The notes below the pieces were generated by a model, which was not told where the DNA came from, did not search any database, and saw nothing but the letters and a program-made list of their open reading frames with translations. Of a stretch of DNA of 64,000 nucleotides, positions 19,790-33,848 are shown in pieces. Origin of the DNA: Nakamurella leprariae (GTDB lineage Bacteria; Actinomycetota; Actinomycetes; Mycobacteriales; Nakamurellaceae); the NCBI RefSeq assembly GCF_016918035.1, contig NZ_JAERWK010000021.1:124001-188000 (forward strand), in the 5' to 3' direction. Position numbers and translations under genes: made by a program. The first letter of the stretch is position 1; the number at the start of each line of letters is the position of its first letter.

Positions 19790-20494
19790 TCAGTCGGTGC
19801 CGGCCAGCCCGGTCTCGTAGGCGAGCACGACCAGCCCGACCCGGTCGCGCACGTCCAGCTTGGCCAGCAGCCGGCCCACGTGCGTCTTCACCGTCGCCTC
19901 GGCCAGCACCAGCCGGTCGGCGATCTCGGTGTTGGACGCGCCGGTGGCGATCAGCGCCAGCACCTCCCGTTCCCGGGCGGTGAGCACGTCGAGGCGCTGG
20001 TCGGGGACCGGGCCTGACGCGGTCGGGCTGGGCAGGGTGTGGCTGAACTGCTCGATCAGCCGGCGGGTCGCGCTCGGGGCGACCACCGCGTCGCCGGCGG
20101 CGACCGAGCGGATCGCGCCGAGCAGCTCGTCCGGCCGGGCGTCCTTCAGCAGGAAGCCACTGGCCCCGGCCCGCAGCGCCGCCCACACGTACTCGTCCAG
20201 GTCGAACGTGGTCAGCATCAGCACCCTCGGCGCGACCGGCCGGGCCAGCACCTGCGCGCAGGCCTGCACCCCGTCCATCCCCGGCATCCGCACGTCCATC
20301 AGCACCACGTCGACCCCGGGATCACCCCCGTCGGCCAGCCGTCCGGTGAGGGCGACGGCCTCGATGCCGGTCCCGGCCTCCCCCACCACGACCATGTCCG
20401 GCTGTGCGTCGATGAGCATGCGGAAGCCCGAGCGGACCAGGTGCTGGTCGTCGATCAGGGCGACCCGGATCCCCACCGCACCCGAGGCGGTCAC
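19790..20494 (-). CDS. LuxR/NarL-type response regulator
   Basis: A 234-residue two-component regulator. The receiver domain begins VALIDDQHLVRSGFRMLID, with the phospho-acceptor Asp in VDVVLMDVRMPGMDG and the conserved Lys in FLLKDARPDELL. The C-terminal LuxR helix-turn-helix is LTAREREVLALIATGASNTE with ATVKTHVGRLLAKLDV. The GTG start overlaps the stop of the histidine kinase gene (GTGA), so the pair is coupled. The divergent ABC transporter is the probable target, which is common for such pairs in actinobacteria. Confidence 0.93.
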   Translation of the reverse strand: MTASGAVGIRVALIDDQHLVRSGFRMLIDAQPDMVVVGEAGTGIEAVALTGRLADGGDPGVDVVLMDVRMPGMDGVQACAQVLARPVAPRVLMLTTFDLDEYVWAALRAGASGFLLKDARPDELLGAIRSVAAGDAVVAPSATRRLIEQFSHTLPSPTASGPVPDQRLDVLTAREREVLALIATGASNTEIADRLVLAEATVKTHVGRLLAKLDVRDRVGLVVLAYETGLAGTD

Positions 20495-21759
20495 CGGCGA
20501 CCCGCCCCGACCGGCCCGACCGACGTCGGGACCGGCAGTTCGGCCACCACCTGGAACCCGCCGCCGACCCGCGGCGCCGCCTGCACCGTCCCGCCCTGCA
20601 GCACCACCCGCTCCCGCATGCCGGTCAGGCCGTGCCCGCCCTGGTCGAGCGGCTGCCCGGCCCCCCAGGCCGCCGCGCCACGCCCGTCGTCGGTGACCAC
20701 CACCAGCAGCCGGGACGGGGTGGCCGCGACCCGGACGTCCACCGACGGGTCCGGACCGGCGTGCTTGAGCACGTTGGTGAGCGACTCCTGGACCACCCGG
20801 TAGACGGTCAGGCCCAGACCGGCCGGCACCTCGGGCACCGGATCCGGCAACGTGAGGGTGACGTCCAGACCGGTCCGGCGCACCTGGGCGACCAGGTCGG
20901 GGATGTCGGTCAGCTGCGGCATCGGTGCGAACCCCGCGTCCGCCGGCCCGCTGCCGCGACCGTCCCGCTCGGCGGCGCCGTCCGGATCCAGGTCCCCGCC
21001 GGTGCGCAGGACCCCGATCATCCGCCGCATCTCGGCCAGCGCCTCGCGGCCGGTGTCGGCGATGGTGGCCAGCGCGGCCGGGGCCACCGACGGGTCCACC
21101 TCCGACGCCGCCGCGGCCCCGTCCGCCTGCACGATCACCACGGACAGGGAGTGGGCCACGATGTCGTGCAGCTCCCGGGCGATGCGGGCGCGCTCGGCGG
21201 CCGCGCTGACCTGCAGTCGCTGCTGGTGCTCGCGTTCCAGCAGCACCGTCCGCTCCCGCGCCGCGGCCAGCTGGTCGGCCGTGCGCTCGCGTCGTTCCCG
21301 TTGCCAGCGCCCCAGCACCAGGGCGGCAGTCACCGCGATCACGCCCACGGCGATGCCCAGCACCAGCACGGACGGGTCGTTCCGACCGAACCAGCGCAGC
21401 CCGGCCAGCACCGACCCGACGACGGCGGTGGCGGCGGTGGCCAGGCCCCAGCGCCGGTCGGCGATGTGAGCGGCCGCGGTGTGCACCGCCACCAGCACGA
21501 CCAGGTCGGCCATCAGCGGTCGGGACAGCAACAACACCTGGAGCAGGCAGATCGCCGCGGTCACCCCGACCATGGCCTCGGGCGCGGCCCGCCGGAACAG
21601 CAGCGGCAGCAGCAGCGCCACGGTCATCAGCAGCTCGACGGCGGTCGGCTCCCCGGACTGTCCCAGCGTGGGCGCCGACAGCACGAACAGTGCGAGCGCA
21701 AGCAGGGCGTCCGGCAGGGTGCGGTGCTCGCCGAACCACCGGGACCACCGCTCGACCAT
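20491..21759 (-). CDS. Sensor histidine kinase (HisKA_3 type)
   Basis: A 422-residue membrane kinase. Four to six membrane segments fill the first ~150 residues, followed by a short coiled coil (WQRERRERTADQLAAARERT) and the HisKA_3 phosphorylation box RIARELHDIVAHSLSVVIV, whose His is the site. The ATPase domain contains YRVVQESLTNVLKHAG and TDDGRGAAAWG. There is no extracellular sensing domain, so the signal is probably perceived within or at the membrane. The frame remains open upstream to 21870, but the ATG at 21759 gives a natural N terminus (MVERWSRWFGEHRTLPDALL). Confidence 0.9.
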   Translation of the reverse strand: MVERWSRWFGEHRTLPDALLALALFVLSAPTLGQSGEPTAVELLMTVALLLPLLFRRAAPEAMVGVTAAICLLQVLLLSRPLMADLVVLVAVHTAAAHIADRRWGLATAATAVVGSVLAGLRWFGRNDPSVLVLGIAVGVIAVTAALVLGRWQRERRERTADQLAAARERTVLLEREHQQRLQVSAAAERARIARELHDIVAHSLSVVIVQADGAAAASEVDPSVAPAALATIADTGREALAEMRRMIGVLRTGGDLDPDGAAERDGRGSGPADAGFAPMPQLTDIPDLVAQVRRTGLDVTLTLPDPVPEVPAGLGLTVYRVVQESLTNVLKHAGPDPSVDVRVAATPSRLLVVVTDDGRGAAAWGAGQPLDQGGHGLTGMRERVVLQGGTVQAAPRVGGGFQVVAELPVPTSVGPVGAGRR

Positions 21760-21822
21760 CCCCGCAGGGTAGGTCTCCGGGACGGTCCCGGGCACGGCCC
21801 GGCGCTCCGCGGAGCACAAGTC

Positions 21823-21870
21823 CCGACCCCGGTCGGACTCCGCCCGCCGCAGGTGCGACCCCGGTCGCAC
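21823..21870. promoter_or_regulatory. Duplicated palindrome CGACCCCGGTCG between kinase and ABC transporter
   Basis: The 12-nt palindrome CGACCCCGGTCG occurs at 21824-21835 (as CCGACC-CC-GGTCGG) and at 21856-21867 (extended to GTGCGAC-CCCG-GTCGCAC, 21853-21870). The start-to-start distance is 32 bp, close to three helical turns. A third small inverted repeat, GGACC-TCC-GGTCC, follows at 21876-21888. These are good candidates for binding sites of the adjacent response regulator. Confidence 0.5.
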
Positions 21871-22001
21871 GCCGCGGACCTCCGGTCCACCCGCAGCGGG
21901 ACCGTCCGGCCGGCGAAGACCCGACCGGCATCCGATGTCCCGATCGCGTCCGGTCCATAGCGTCGACGCCGGTCCTGATCACCGATCCCGAGGAGCCGTC
22001 C

Positions 22002-22819
<818 letters not shown>

Positions 22820-22823
<4 letters not shown>

Positions 22824-25354
22824 GCGGCCGGTCCACCGGGACGGCCACCGGCCGGGCGCTGGCGCAGCTGCGGGCCACCCCGTCACGGTTCGTCGCGGTG
22901 ACGCTGGCCGTGCTGCTCGGCGTCGGCTTCGTCGCCACCATCGTGGTGTTCACCGGCACCTTCTCCGCCGGACTCCGCGCCTCGGTCGGCGCCGAGTACG
23001 CCCGCGGCGATGTCGTGGTGTCCGACGACACCGGCGCCGCCGACGACGCGGAGCGGCTGGCCACGGTGACCGCCACCCCCGGCGTCGCGGCGGCCGCACT
23101 GCTGGACCGGGTGTACGCCGAGTTCCGCGCCCCGGCCGCGCAGGGCTTCCTGCGGGTCAACGGGTTCATCGAGGACGACCGGCTGAGCTGGCTGGACCTG
23201 CAGGACGGACGCGCCCCGGTCGGACCCGGCGAGGTGCTGGTCGACCGGGTCACCGCGGACCGGACCTCGCTGACCGTCGGCGACGTCGTCGCGCTGACCG
23301 TTCCGGGCCACGACGACGGGACCGAGGTGATCGAGGACCGGACGGCCGATGCCACCGTGGTCGGCATCGCCGACAGCTCGGCCTCCGCGCTGGCCGGCGC
23401 CTCGCTGCAGGCGTGGGGTGGCCCAGCGCTGTCCGACGCGCTCGAGCCCGACAGGACCGGGTCGCGGATCGTGGTGGCCGCCGTCCCCGGCACCGACGTC
23501 GGGTCGCTCATCGCCACCCTGCAGCAGGAGCTGGGCCCGGACGCGATGGTCCGGACCAGCGCCGAGGAGGGCGATGCCGCCGTCGCGTCGATGAGCAGCG
23601 ACGCAGACGCCATCACCACCGTGCTGCTCGGTTTCGCCGCGGTGGCGGCGGTGGCGGCGGCGATCGTCATCGCCAACACCTTCACCATCCTGGTCACCCA
23701 GCGGGCCCGGGCGGTGGCGCTGCTGCGCTGCGTCGGGGCCACCACCACGCAGGTGCGCCGGCAGGTGCTCGCCGAGGCCGCGGTGCTCGGGGTGATCGGC
23801 TCGCTGGCCGGCGTCGCGGTCGGCATCGGACTCGGCGCGCTGGCCGCCCGGCTGTTCGACCTGGACGCCGGCGGACTGGCGGCGGATCCGGTGGCGCTGG
23901 CCGCGGCGTTCGGCGGCGGCGTGATGCTGACCATCGTGGCGGCCGCGGTGCCGGCCGGCCGCGCGGCCCGGATCGCCCCGCTGGCCGCGCTGCGCACCGT
24001 CCCGGACGGGGCCGACCAGCGGCCGCGCCGGATCCGGTCGGTGCTGGCCGGGCTGCTGACCCTGGGCGGCGCCGCGCTCCTCGGACTGGGGGTGGCCACC
24101 CCGTCGCTGCTCGTCGCCCTGCCCGGGGGGATGGCCGCCGCGATCGGGCTGCTGCTGTTCACCCCGTGGTTCCTGCCGCCGCTGCTGCGGCTGCTCGGCG
24201 GCGTCGGCCGGCTCGTCGGCACCCCGGGCTCGCTCGCCGTGGCCAACAGCACCCGGCACCCGCGCCGGGCCGCGGCCGCCGCCGTCGGCCTCATGCTCGG
24301 CGTCGGGCTGATCGTCACGTTGCAGGTCGGCGCGGAGACCGCCCGCGCCTCGATGGACCGGTCGCTGGCCGACCGCTACCCGGTCGACGCGACGCTCACC
24401 GCGCTGGATCCCGCCGACCCCGACCTGCCGGCCGACCTGGCCGCGCGGGTGGCGGCCGTCCCGGGTGTCACGGACGTCGTCGCCCTGCCGGGCACCGTCG
24501 GCGCCCTGGCCGAACTCCCGGACCAGGGCGAGGTCACCGTTCTGGGCGCCGACCCGGCCGCGGTGCCGTCCCCGCTGGCCACCGACGACGGCACCCTGCT
24601 GGTCCCGGACTGGCTCGTCGATCCCTTGTACGGCCAGCTCAGTGCCGGACAGACGGTGACGCTGCAGACCCCGGACGGATCCCGCTCGTTCACGGTGGCC
24701 GCCGCTCCCGTCGACGCGCTCGGCGCCACGTCCATCACGTTCGTGACCACCGCGGCCGCGGTCACCGCGCTGACCGGCGCCGCCGGCGCCGACGCGGCGA
24801 TGGCGGTGTGGGCGTCGATCCCGGAGCTGGACGATCTGGACCGGGCGACCGCGGCCCTCCAGGAGCTGTCGGTCGGCGAGGCCGGGGCCGGACTGCTGCT
24901 GGGCGGAGGGGCGCCGGAGCGGGCGGCGCTGCACGAGGCGCTCGGACAGATGCTGCTGCTGGCCACCGGTCTGCTGGCGGTGGCGGTGATCATCGCGCTG
25001 GTCGGGATCGGCAACACGCTGAGCCTGTCGGTGCTGGAGCGCACCCGCGAGTCGGCGCTGCTGCGGGCGCTGGGCCTGCGGCGCGGGCAGCTGGCCCTGA
25101 TGCTGCTCATCGAGGCGGTGTTGCTGGCCGTGGCCGGGACCGTGGTGGGCGTGCTGGCCGGCGTCGGCTTCGGCTGGGCCGGGGTGGCGGCCAGCCTCGG
25201 GGAGACCGGCGGGGAGCTGGTGCTGTCGATGCCGTGGGGTCAGCTGGCCGGGGTGCTCGGTCTGGCCGTGCTGGCCGGGATCCTGGCCGCGGTGCTGCCC
25301 GCGCGCCGGGCCACCCGGACCGCTCCGGTGACCGCGCTGGCCGACCTGGGCTGA
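22820..25354 (+). CDS. FtsX/MacB-fold ABC transporter permease
   Basis: An 844-residue permease with two FtsX repeats. The first membrane helix is near residue 25 (FVAVTLAVLLGVGFVATIVV), followed by an extracellular domain of ~220 residues. A three-helix block (from LGFAAVAAVAAAIVIANTF, with RAVALLRCVGATTTQVRRQV) comes next, then a second half with its own extracellular domain, and a final block with RTRESALLRALGLRRGQLAL. This is the usual layout of actinobacterial two-domain FtsX exporters that extrude peptides, lipids or drugs or detach lipoproteins. It works with the upstream ATPase. It is followed by a bidirectional hairpin. Confidence 0.92.
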
Positions 25355-30781: not shown

Positions 30782-30790
30782 CCTCAGGGG
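30775..30790. terminator. Compact hairpin spanning the B3 and leuS stop codons
   Basis: CCCCTGA (30775-30781) and TCAGGGG (30784-30790) are complementary; six pairs form around a 4-nt loop. It contains both convergent stop codons, so a bidirectional terminator overlapping coding DNA is likely. Confidence 0.5.
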
Positions 30791-33669
30791 ACGATCGACA
30801 CCATCTTCCCCGGCACCACCACGACCTTGCGCGGCGCGGCCCCGGCCAGCAGCTCGACGATCTTCTCGTCGGCCAGCGCGGCCGCCTCGATGTCCGCCGC
30901 GGCGGCGTCGGCCGCGACCTGGATGCGGGACCGCACCTTGCCCTTGACCTGGATGGGCAGCTCGACGAGATCCTCGACCAGCAGGGCCGGATCGGCCTGC
31001 GGGAACGGTCCGTGGGCCAGCGAGGCGTCGTGCCCCAGCCGCTGCCACAGCTCCTCGGCGATGTGCGGGGCCAGCGGCGCCGTCATCAGCACCAGCGCCT
31101 CGGCCACCTCCCGCGACACCGGCACGTTCGCCTTGGTCAGGTGGTTCACCATGACGTTCAGCTTGGCGATCGCGGTGTTGTAGAGCATGCCCTCGTAGTC
31201 GGCGCGCACCCCGTCGATGGTGCGGTGCAACAGCTTCGCCGTCTCCGCGTCCGGTCCGTCGTCCACCACGGTCAGCTCGCCGGTCTCCTCGGAGACGACC
31301 GACCGCCAGAGCCGCTGCAGGTACCGCTGCGAGCCGACCGCGTCGCGCGTCGACCAGGGCCGGGACGTGTCCAAGGGTCCCATGTTCATCTCGTACATCC
31401 GGAACGTGTCCGCGCCGAACTGCTCGCACATCTCGTCCGGCGTCACCACGTTGTTCAGCGACTTGCCCATCTTGCCGTACTCCCGGCCGACCGGCTTGCC
31501 CTCGAAACCGAAGACGCCGGGCGAGGTCTCGACGACCTCGGACGCCGGCACGTACACCCCACGCTCGTCGGTGTACGCGTACGCCTGGATGTAGCCCTGG
31601 TTGAACAGCCGGCGGAACGGCTCCTCGCTGGTCACGTGCCCCAGGTCGAACAGCACCTTGTGCCAGAACCGCGAGTACAGCAGGTGCAGCACGGCGTGCT
31701 CCACCCCACCGACGTACAGGTCGACACCGCCCGGGTCTCCGGCGATCCCGTCCCGCTTGCCCATCCAGTACTGCTCGACCGCCGGGGCGCAGAAGGTCTG
31801 GTCGTTGGTCGGGTCCAGGTAGCGCAGCTCGTACCAGCACGACCCGGCCCATTGCGGCATCACGTTCAGCTCACGACGGTAGGTCTGCAGCCCGTCGCCG
31901 AGATCCAGCTCCACCGTGGCCCAGTCGGTGGCGCGGGCCAGCGGCGGGACCGGCTCGGACTCGGCGTCCAGCGGATCCAGTTGCTGCGGCGCGTAGTCGG
32001 TGACCTCCGGCAGCTGCAGCGGCAGCAGTGCGTCGGGCAGTGCGTGCGCGATCCCGGCCCGGTCGTAGACGATCGGGAACGGCTCGCCCCAGTAGCGCTG
32101 CCGGCTGAACAGCCAGTCCCGCAGCTTGTACTGCTTGCGGGCGAAGCCGAAGCCCTTGTCCTGCAACCACTGAGTGATCCGCGCCTTGGCCTCGACGACC
32201 TCCAGGCCGTCCAGCGACACCTCGTCGTTGGCGCTGTTGATCGCGGCACCGGCGCCGGTGTACGCCTCGTCGGCCGGGTGGTCCGACGGTGCCTGCACGG
32301 TGGCCACGATGGGCAGGCCGAAGACCGTCGCGAACTCGTGGTCGCGCACGTCGTGCGCGGGAACGGCCATGATGGCGCCCGTGCCGTAGCCCATCAGCAC
32401 GTAGTCGGCCACGAAGATCGGCACCCGGGCACCGTTCACCGGGTTGACGCCGGAGGCGCCGGTGAAGACGCCGGTCTTCTCCTTGTTCTCCTGCCGATCC
32501 AGCTCGGACTTCTGCGACGCGGCCAGCCGGTAGGCGGCGACGGCCTCGGCCGGGGTGGCCGCCCCGCCGGTCCAGCGCGGGTCCGTGCCGTCCGGCCAGG
32601 CCGCGGCGGTGATCGCCGGCACCAGCGGGTGTTCCGGCGCCACCACCATGTAGGTCGCGCCGAACAGCGTGTCCGGGCGGGTGGTGTAGACCTCCAGGGC
32701 AGCGTCCGGGTCGGCGTCGGCGATCGGGAAGCGCACCTGCGCCCCGGTCGACCGGCCGATCCAGTTGCGCTGCATCGACTTCACCGAGTCGGGCCAGTCG
32801 AGCCGGTCCAGGTCGTCCAGCAGCCGGTCGGCGTACGCGGTGATCCGCATCATCCACTGCCGCAGGTTCCGCCGGAACACCGGGAAGTTGCCGATCTCCG
32901 ACTTGCCGTCGGCGGTGATCTCCTCGTTGGACAGCACGGTGCCCAGGCCCGGGCACCAGTTCACCGGCGCCTCGTCGACGTAGGCGAGCCGGTGACCGGT
33001 GAGCACCGCGTCCCGCTCGGCGGCCGACAGGTCCGTCCACGCCCGTCCGTCCGGGGTGGGTCGGGTGCCGGCCTGGAACTCCGCGACCAGCTCCGCGATG
33101 GGACGGGCGCGGTGGGCGTCCTCGTCGTACCAGGCGTCGAACAGCTGCAGGAAGATCCACTGCGTCCAGCGGAAGAACTTCGGATCGGTGGTGGCCACGC
33201 TGCGCCGCTGGTCGTGCCCGAAGCCCAACCGGCGCAGCTGCGCGCGGTAGCGGGCGATGTTCTCCTCGGTGGTCACCCGCGGATGGGTGCCGGTGCGCAC
33301 CGCATACTGCTCGGCCGGCAGCCCGAAGGCGTCGTAGCCGATGGTGTGCAGCACGTTACGACCGGTCATCCGGGCGAACCGGCCCAGCACGTCGGTCCCG
33401 ATGTAGCCCAACGGGTGCCCGACGTGCAGTCCCTTGCCCGACGGGTACGGGAACATGTCGAGCAGGTACAGCTTGTCGGCCGGCACCGCACCGTCCGCCG
33501 GAGCCAGCGCACCGACCGGGTTGGGCGCCTCGAAGGTGCCGTGCAGCTCCCAGAAGTCCTGCCACTTGGCCTCGATCGACCCGGCCAGGGCCGCGGTGTA
33601 GCGGAACCGGGGGGCGTCCCCCGGCGCATCACCGTGGCCGGCGGCGGTGGTGGTGCTGGTGGCGGTCAT
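30784..33669 (-). CDS. leuS: Leucyl-tRNA synthetase
   Basis: A 961-residue class I synthetase charging tRNA-Leu. The HIGH motif is HVGH (residues ~82-85, in [15 protein letters not shown]) and the KMSKS loop reads KMGKS (~residue 731, in [10 protein letters not shown]). The CP1 editing domain includes [20 protein letters not shown]. The length is normal for bacteria. The start ATG ([14 protein letters not shown]) has GGAG ~8 nt upstream; an extension to 33735 is open but overlaps the leader terminator region. The 165 nt before the gene hold a leader peptide, an intermediate hairpin and a U-tailed terminator, suggesting leucine-responsive attenuation. Confidence 0.97.
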
Positions 33670-33735: not shown

Positions 33736-33764
33736 AAAAAATCCCTCCTGATCTCAGGAGGGAT
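33736..33764 (-). terminator. Intrinsic terminator in the leuS leader (attenuator)
   Basis: Read on the minus strand, ATCCCTCCTG pairs with CAGGAGGGAT over 10 bp around the 4-nt loop AGAT and is followed by a run of five more T (six counting the last stem T, 33741-33736). This is a true U-tailed terminator, rare in this GC-rich window, and it lies about 70 nt before leuS. Confidence 0.85.
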
Positions 33765-33765
33765 C

Positions 33766-33809
33766 GCCGCGCTCCGACGGTCGGGGATCGACCCGCCGAT
33801 CAGCGCGGC
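33766..33809 (-). promoter_or_regulatory. Leader hairpin upstream of the leuS terminator
   Basis: GCCGCGCT and AGCGCGGC (minus-strand 33809-33802 with 33773-33766) form an 8-bp stem enclosing GGTCG/CGACC. The left arm overlaps the last codons and stop of the leader ORF, so a ribosome finishing or stalling on the ORF would change folding, as expected for attenuation. Confidence 0.6.
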
Positions 33810-33835
33810 TGCACGAGCAGCGGAACCGTGACCAC
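33800..33835 (-). CDS. leuS leader peptide (MVTVPLLVQPR)
   Basis: A 12-codon ORF starting with GTG and ending TGA encodes MVTVPLLVQPR with adjacent Leu codons (CTG CTC), followed directly by the leader hairpin and the terminator. There is no ribosome site, but a TAGACT hexamer ends 7 nt before the GTG, so the transcript probably starts on this codon. The arrangement fits a ribosome-mediated leucine attenuator. It is inferred from sequence only; the two Leu codons are few compared with enteric leader peptides. Confidence 0.6.
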   Translation of the reverse strand: MVTVPLLVQPR

Positions 33836-33842
33836 GCAGGTC

Positions 33843-33848
33843 AGTCTA
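33843..33848 (-). promoter_or_regulatory. Leaderless -10 element for the leuS leader
   Basis: TAGACT (minus strand) ends 7 nt before the leader GTG at 33835. No convincing -35 is seen in the GC-rich upstream DNA. Confidence 0.55.

Follow-up and report, generated by a model that had tools for sequence, protein, structure and literature searches.

The leucyl-tRNA synthetase gene of Nakamurella leprariae is preceded by a short open reading frame with two adjacent leucine codons and by a U-tailed hairpin, which raises the question of whether leuS is controlled by a leader that reads leucine supply and, if so, by what form of antitermination. An initial annotation of the window (the whole stretch of 64,000 nucleotides analysed) had taken these elements for a leaderless leucine attenuator. 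The features concerned, in window coordinates, are:

33843 to 33848, minus strand: TAGACT, probable -10 box, from the sequence and the position of the TANNNT box in relatives
33800 to 33835, minus strand: leader open reading frame MVTVPLLVQPR and stop, with a GTG start, probably leaderless, from the sequence and conserved reading frames in relatives
33815 to 33820, minus strand: adjacent control codons CTG CTC (Leu Leu), from the 5-nt spacer kept in relatives
33766 to 33809, minus strand: hairpin A, GC-rich, proposed antiterminator, from the fold, covariation and a search for arm complements
33740 to 33765, minus strand: intrinsic terminator hairpin of 11 pairs, from the fold and a terminator scan
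33736 to 33741, minus strand: U tail of six T's, the first two within the stem, from the sequence
30784 to 33669, minus strand: leuS, leucyl-tRNA synthetase, from Pfam PF13603, PF00133 and PF08264

Read along the minus strand, TAGACT (33848-33843) is separated by 7 nt from the GTG at 33835, which opens a frame of 11 codons (M V T V P L L V Q P R, stop) whose last Leu codon, CTC, ends 5 nt upstream of hairpin A and whose stop, TGA (33802-33800), overlaps hairpin A, within its 5' arm; box, spacing, start codon, 11-residue Leu-Leu frame and a stop inside a hairpin were all found as first described. The 5' arm of hairpin A is GCCGCGCT (33809-33802) and the 3' arm is AGCGCGGC (33773-33766), with an inner stem between the two, and the terminator adjoins it with a gap of 0 nt. 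This terminator had been claimed with a stem of 10 bp; the U-tailed hairpin is present, and its arms (GATCCCTCCTG and CAGGAGGGATT) form 11 pairs including a G-U and an A-U at the base. From the end of its tail (33736) it is 66 nt to the ATG of leuS at 33669, which has GAGGAG 6 nt upstream, the gene being recognised by the editing domain of leucyl-tRNA synthetase and by class I synthetase domains. Two of the features that define a ribosome-mediated attenuator are present at this locus: a short open reading frame whose codons call for the amino acid handled by the gene downstream and, as judged by sequence and fold, a terminator before that gene. In the alignment, the stretch after the U tract (window 33736-33722) reads UGUCCGG, UGCCCGG, UUUCCGG or similar and recurs in several families.

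None of 200 dinucleotide shuffles folded as well as the leader with both hairpins (z -4.8), and z reached -6.2 against such shuffles when the 5' part of the reading frame was removed and both hairpins were kept. The terminator part alone gave z -2.2 (6 of 200 shuffles as good), and the reading frame with hairpin A but without the terminator showed a slight excess only (z -1.2, equalled by 28 of 200 shuffles). Scans of all of the window but its last base placed the hairpin at 33765-33740 by far ahead of any other terminator-like site, the 11 others being weak, with stems of 5-7 bp and broken T tails, so that the claim of a single clear U-tailed terminator in the window held. Counts of these other sites were near the shuffle level, except in 19900-24100, where 2 were found against 0.2 expected, both weak.

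Conservation was assessed in 110 leuS loci, comprising 80 contigs, which are biased to close LeuS because they were the best 80 of 121 relatives, and 30 genomes, the window's own included, from a second set of 41 (the other 11 did not give loci with leaders read); the two sets may share species. A pattern consisting of TANNNT, 4-9 nt, ATG or GTG and a reading frame with two adjacent Leu codons found a leader in 88 of the 110 loci, and three more (L001, L006 and L028) were found by R1, a covariance model built from the leaders of 34 relatives with the window left out, giving 91/110, or 90/109 without the window copy; these leaders share ancestry, so the counts are not counts of independent events. 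The 19 loci without a leader belonged to Pseudonocardia (5), Amycolatopsis (1), Acidimicrobiales MAGs (7), the genus itself (2) and other genomes of the order (4, among them L108, which at E 0.05 was excluded from the R1 matches). Relatives lacking the reading frame or the terminator had been named at the outset as evidence against an attenuator, and such relatives do exist (2 of 17 genus members, G015 and G011 by both pattern and model, and 19 of 110 loci), with the leader present in the rest, including 15 of the 17 genomes of the genus; we read the absences as losses or limits of range. By eye, genus locus L091 keeps the terminator but shows GTG TAG at the expected beginning of the peptide, and genus locus L094 has neither leader peptide nor terminator.

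R1 scored the window copy at 66.1 bits (E 6.4e-14), the next best place in the window reaching E 0.25. At E 1e-4, at least 211 of 298 genomes of the order, in at least 49 of 66 genera, carried a match, and under stricter filters 27 of the 396 genomes of a phylum sample did so; with only this many matching, the element is far from universal. In family f7 of the same order, none of the 14 genomes listed in the phylum sample matched R1. Hairpin A showed covariation (90% of cells paired, and in 8 of 12 pairs a change at both positions), and the covariation values of the two helices together were reached in 0 of 500 shuffles; slid versions of the helices dropped the paired cells from 89% to 42-50%. 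Comparison of the leaders as sequences bears out the reading frame, its control codons and spacing, hairpin A, the terminator and the linkage to leuS.

These data bear on two quite different explanations of the locus. The terminator is strong in itself and could simply end an upstream transcript, with the leuS promoter downstream of it and the reading frame incidental; however, the Leu-rich frame, the CTT codon, the spacing and the covarying hairpin co-occur across genera, and all 29 R1 matches of the phylum sample precede branched-chain amino-acid genes, namely leuS (23, the window's own included), leuA (3) or ilvB (3), yet the model was trained on leuS leaders only. A plain terminator is very improbable on this evidence. 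Aminoacyl-tRNA synthetase genes often carry T-boxes, and a T-box, another riboswitch or a protein-binding leader might be expected here on that ground. The available part of PMC1262725 also mentions unusual T-boxes before ileS. In the leuS leaders, however, the loop enclosed by the arms of hairpin A varies freely in length and sequence, and we give a leader of this kind hardly any credence. No Rfam family matched the window copy at gathering score; three matches appeared at E up to 10, all far below their own gathering scores.

The start of the leader was compared across the 88 leaders found by pattern. TANNNT lay 6-7 nt before the start codon in 82 of them (4-9 nt being allowed by the pattern), and the start codon was ATG in 70 and GTG in 18. 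A distance of 6-7 nt between box and start is that expected for leaderless transcripts in actinobacteria. The transcript therefore probably begins at the start codon, as suggested by this distance together with a report from Streptomyces lividans (the available part of PMC8079986). The Leu-codon frame, the box spacing, the covarying hairpins, the U-tailed terminator and the R1 matches before branched-chain genes together make it very probable that the leader is a leaderless leucine attenuator acting by ribosome-mediated transcription attenuation (we put this at about 0.85), and the core of the initial annotation is supported to that extent.

The control codon has a strong identity and a fixed position. 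The last Leu codon was CTT in 82 of the 88 leaders, and within these leuS genes, from the MFPYPSG-type motif onward, CTT accounted for 0.45% of 6057 Leu codons; the window leader, with two Leu codons only and CTC last, is among the six exceptions. Exactly 5 nt separated the last Leu codon from the 5' arm of hairpin A in 84 of 87 leaders (L016, the remaining leader of the 88, had no recognised arm), and by eye L016 and L093 also gave 5 nt if measured from their CTT. Relative to the start of the arm, the stop codon stood at +7 (63 leaders), -2 (22), +12 (1) or -3 (1). As far as these sequences tell, the conserved quantity is the spacing to the codon, not the position of the stop. When the control codon occupies the A site, the start of the arm is at +12 on a count from the first P-site base, approximately at the mRNA entry of the ribosome. 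In both main stop classes the arm would lie under a ribosome that has reached the stop. With a stem 5 nt past the control codon and a stop in or at the arm, the geometry would fit a different action of stalled and terminating ribosomes on the hairpin. No statement of the 5-nt rule was found in the literature on actinobacterial leaders, in a search for which the rule itself was not a query and subscription papers were mostly outside the scope.

In the mechanism that we propose, the transcript start, the translation of the leader, the response to leucine and both the direction and the means of the effect of hairpin A are predicted. Transcription would start at or beside the GTG at 33835, and a 70S ribosome would begin translating the 11 codons in the absence of a Shine-Dalgarno site. 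Under a shortage of charged Leu-tRNA it would wait with a Leu codon in the A site, and hairpin A, whose stem starts 5 nt beyond the stalled codon and so just outside the ribosome, could form; with its base against the base of the terminator, it may hinder closure of the terminator, and leuS would be transcribed. When Leu-tRNA is ample, the ribosome would reach the stop within the 5' arm of hairpin A and cover the arm, the terminator would form and transcription would end upstream of leuS. The competition would be one of position: to close, the terminator must zip as far as the RNA-DNA hybrid, for which a stable stem immediately upstream would leave little room.

The position of hairpin A against the terminator was recounted by a free search, because the gaps first counted had been limited to -3 to +6 in the leuS set and to -3 to +5 in a set of 52 leaders described below, and were thus biased by construction. 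In 150 nt, the best complement of the 5' arm ended no more than 5 nt from the start of the terminator in 81 of 86 leaders (of the 88), and the five outside this limit proved by eye to be miscalled terminators. A 7-nt complement as good as that observed arose in 359 of 4300 shuffles, so a stem like this is by itself no rarity in such DNA. The two hairpins shared 0 bases in the window fold and, in the count of relatives, in 57 of 87 leaders, with 1-3 bases shared in 30; given this abutting position and the 57 that share no base, hairpin A does not in general exclude the terminator by pairing. Folding the leaders of relatives together had been suggested as a way to an antiterminator, and it did yield the conserved hairpin; neither the window fold nor the 87 leaders showed a classical antiterminator, one whose pairing would exclude the terminator. 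Hairpin A and the terminator coexist in the same minimum-energy structure of the window leader as naked RNA and hairpin A with the reading frame alone reached only the z given above, so folding lends the antitermination step no thermodynamic support. That hairpin A is an antiterminator through abutment is, on balance, a little short of an even chance.

Compatibility with the terminator in the fold would equally suit a hairpin A that, within the same attenuator logic, acts as a pause or coupling hairpin letting the ribosome catch up, with termination set otherwise by ribosome position. A paused polymerase could sit at a UG 10-11 nt past the base of a hairpin, and UG is frequent at that distance from hairpin A in the alignment. 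The fixed 5-nt distance to the codon, with two main stop places, fits a ribosome-gated hairpin better, however, and no alternative antiterminator was found, so we regard a pausing role as somewhat unlikely.

For the ilvB-II motif of Corynebacterium, the available part of PMC10272879 proposes that the loop of the first hairpin pairs with the terminator's 3' arm, and the equivalent pairing by the loop of hairpin A was also considered. By eye, GGGATT in the terminator of the window offers a partner for the loop, GATCCCC; across 37 leaders, however, the mean run of complementarity was 5.05 against 5.16 with swapped partners (247 of 300 permutations at least as high), so that the leaders as a group did not exceed swapped pairs. 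Antitermination by this route is improbable. The ilvB-II motif is like the window in having its leader frame in the first hairpin and a U-tailed terminator, and differs in the proposed loop-to-arm pairing and in its target gene.

The LEU element of leuA is an actinobacterial leucine leader with Leu codons like that of the window; according to the accessible part of PMC1262725, it has a base stem between Leu codons and the Shine-Dalgarno box of leuA as well as a pseudoknot. For leuS leaders, pairing between the region of the Leu codons and the sequence past the U tract is not supported. An initial permutation test gave an apparently positive result (1 of 300 as high in 37 leaders, 55 of 1000 in 13 genus members). 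On retesting with dinucleotide shuffles and within-group swaps (42 distinct leaders of 65 caught, out of 88), the mean z was -0.54 in 15 leaders of the genus, -0.01 in 19 of Pseudonocardiaceae and -0.47 in 8 others, and swaps as low occurred in 20, 172 and 111 of 200 in the same three groups, so that the base stem was rejected.

The initial annotation had called leuS with such a peptide an unusual case, and this did not stand up to the literature. Classical leuS attenuators were predicted for Streptomyces coelicolor and S. avermitilis (Seliverstov 2005; PMC1262725, available part), and the accessible text of PMC8079986 (2021) reports leuL2 of S. lividans (MRAVRLLLSEPR, then stop) before leuS, leaderless by RNA-seq and followed by a hairpin and a U stretch. 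These leaders and the window are alike in gene, adjacent Leu codons, hairpin and U-tailed terminator, and the leuL2 peptide ends in PR, as does the window peptide, on a transcript that is leaderless in S. lividans; compared from the accessible text and not pair by pair, the window differs in its peptide (MVTVPLLVQPR), in having fewer Leu codons and in having CTC last. Several R1 matches before leuS carry a peptide identical to leuL2, MRAVRLLLSEPR. A leuS leader is thus already known in kind, and what is less expected is the 5-nt ruler with the abutment. Such leaders need not work classically, since in the parts of PMC1262725 available, altered candidate regulatory codons made no difference before S. 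coelicolor ilvB, and those before leuA did not fit classical attenuation.

For adjacent hairpin bases, the nearest published case is ilvBNC of Corynebacterium glutamicum (PMC11857589, as far as available), where the transcript starts 1 nucleotide from the leader start codon, the control codons are CUU and GUA, the bases of terminator and antiterminator are adjacent with a common boundary trinucleotide, and a third hairpin is proposed; there the hairpins share that trinucleotide, whereas 57 of the 87 leaders here share none and 30 share 1-3 bases, and the target gene differs. An ilvB1 leader is treated in PMC13236596, and leuS was absent from the available text of that paper and of PMC8269248 and PMC4833913. 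Among the literature found, leuS attenuators are described only for Streptomyces, and the present leader comes from another order. An older comparative survey of 2010 by Lopatovskaya and others may already cover more leuS leaders. Mycobacteria reportedly have leaderless polycysteine attenuators, attributed to Canestrari in 2020; these too would use a leaderless short frame to read an amino acid, with cysteine genes as targets there.

Leaders of this kind were also found beyond leuS. In 14 genomes of the order, chosen for having at least 2 R1 matches, the downstream genes of 30 matches at E 1e-3 were leuS (14, one in each of the 14 genomes), ilvB (12), the citramalate synthase gene cimA (3) and an amino-acid dehydrogenase gene (1). 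The cimA leaders (L160, L166 and L170) have Ile codons in the same layout (MTPVTIIARRAD, MQFSIIIV and MDATRTIIIS), and no paper on citramalate synthase leader peptides in Actinobacteria was found in a literature search. Of the 52 leaders evaluated out of 58 loci, several of them from the same genomes as the 87-leader spacer count, 46 have an in-frame Leu, Ile or Val codon whose end lies 5 nt short of the stem (six loci were excluded for want of a reading frame or a stem or for being too short, and the leader of L171, where the locus is truncated, was left out of the reading). By gene, the layout held in 12 of 13 ilvB, 3 of 3 cimA and 1 of 2 leuA leaders, the remaining leaders being before leuS or the dehydrogenase gene. 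Of the six that broke the rule, L124 and L167 did so, by eye, through an extra pair at the base of the stem, and the dehydrogenase leader has no Leu, Ile or Val codon at the 5-nt position.

The layout seen in the window looks like one case of a widely shared one. We tentatively propose, as an idea with appreciably less than even odds, a single leaderless class across the branched-chain pathway (leuS, leuA, ilvB and cimA) in Actinomycetota, where a ruler of exactly 5 nt joins the control codon to a GC-rich hairpin with an abutting terminator. In this class the hairpin would block termination by abutment in the elongating polymerase, without pairing, and be erased once the ribosome passes the codon, the ruler codon (CTT, CTC or ATC) setting the amino acid that is read. 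The layout gives a testable rule, 5 nt from control codon to hairpin and hairpin against terminator, and such leaders could be annotated automatically; the window copy matches no Rfam family at gathering score. If abutment does block termination, overlapping pairing would not be the sole geometry of attenuation.

The dehydrogenase leader of L174 (1500-1640) reads MSLGLIIIDGAG, then stop; the enzyme, which we take to be of the Glu/Leu/Phe/Val type, met no NCBIfam cut-off, and its best model was that of tryptophan dehydrogenase. In the genome of the window itself, a second leader (L140; contig C35, 43258-43383, minus strand) stands before ilvB, with TAGCCT, 7 nt, GTG, the peptide MRSLLVII and a hairpin adjoining a U-tailed terminator, as a weaker R1 match (E 0.0035).
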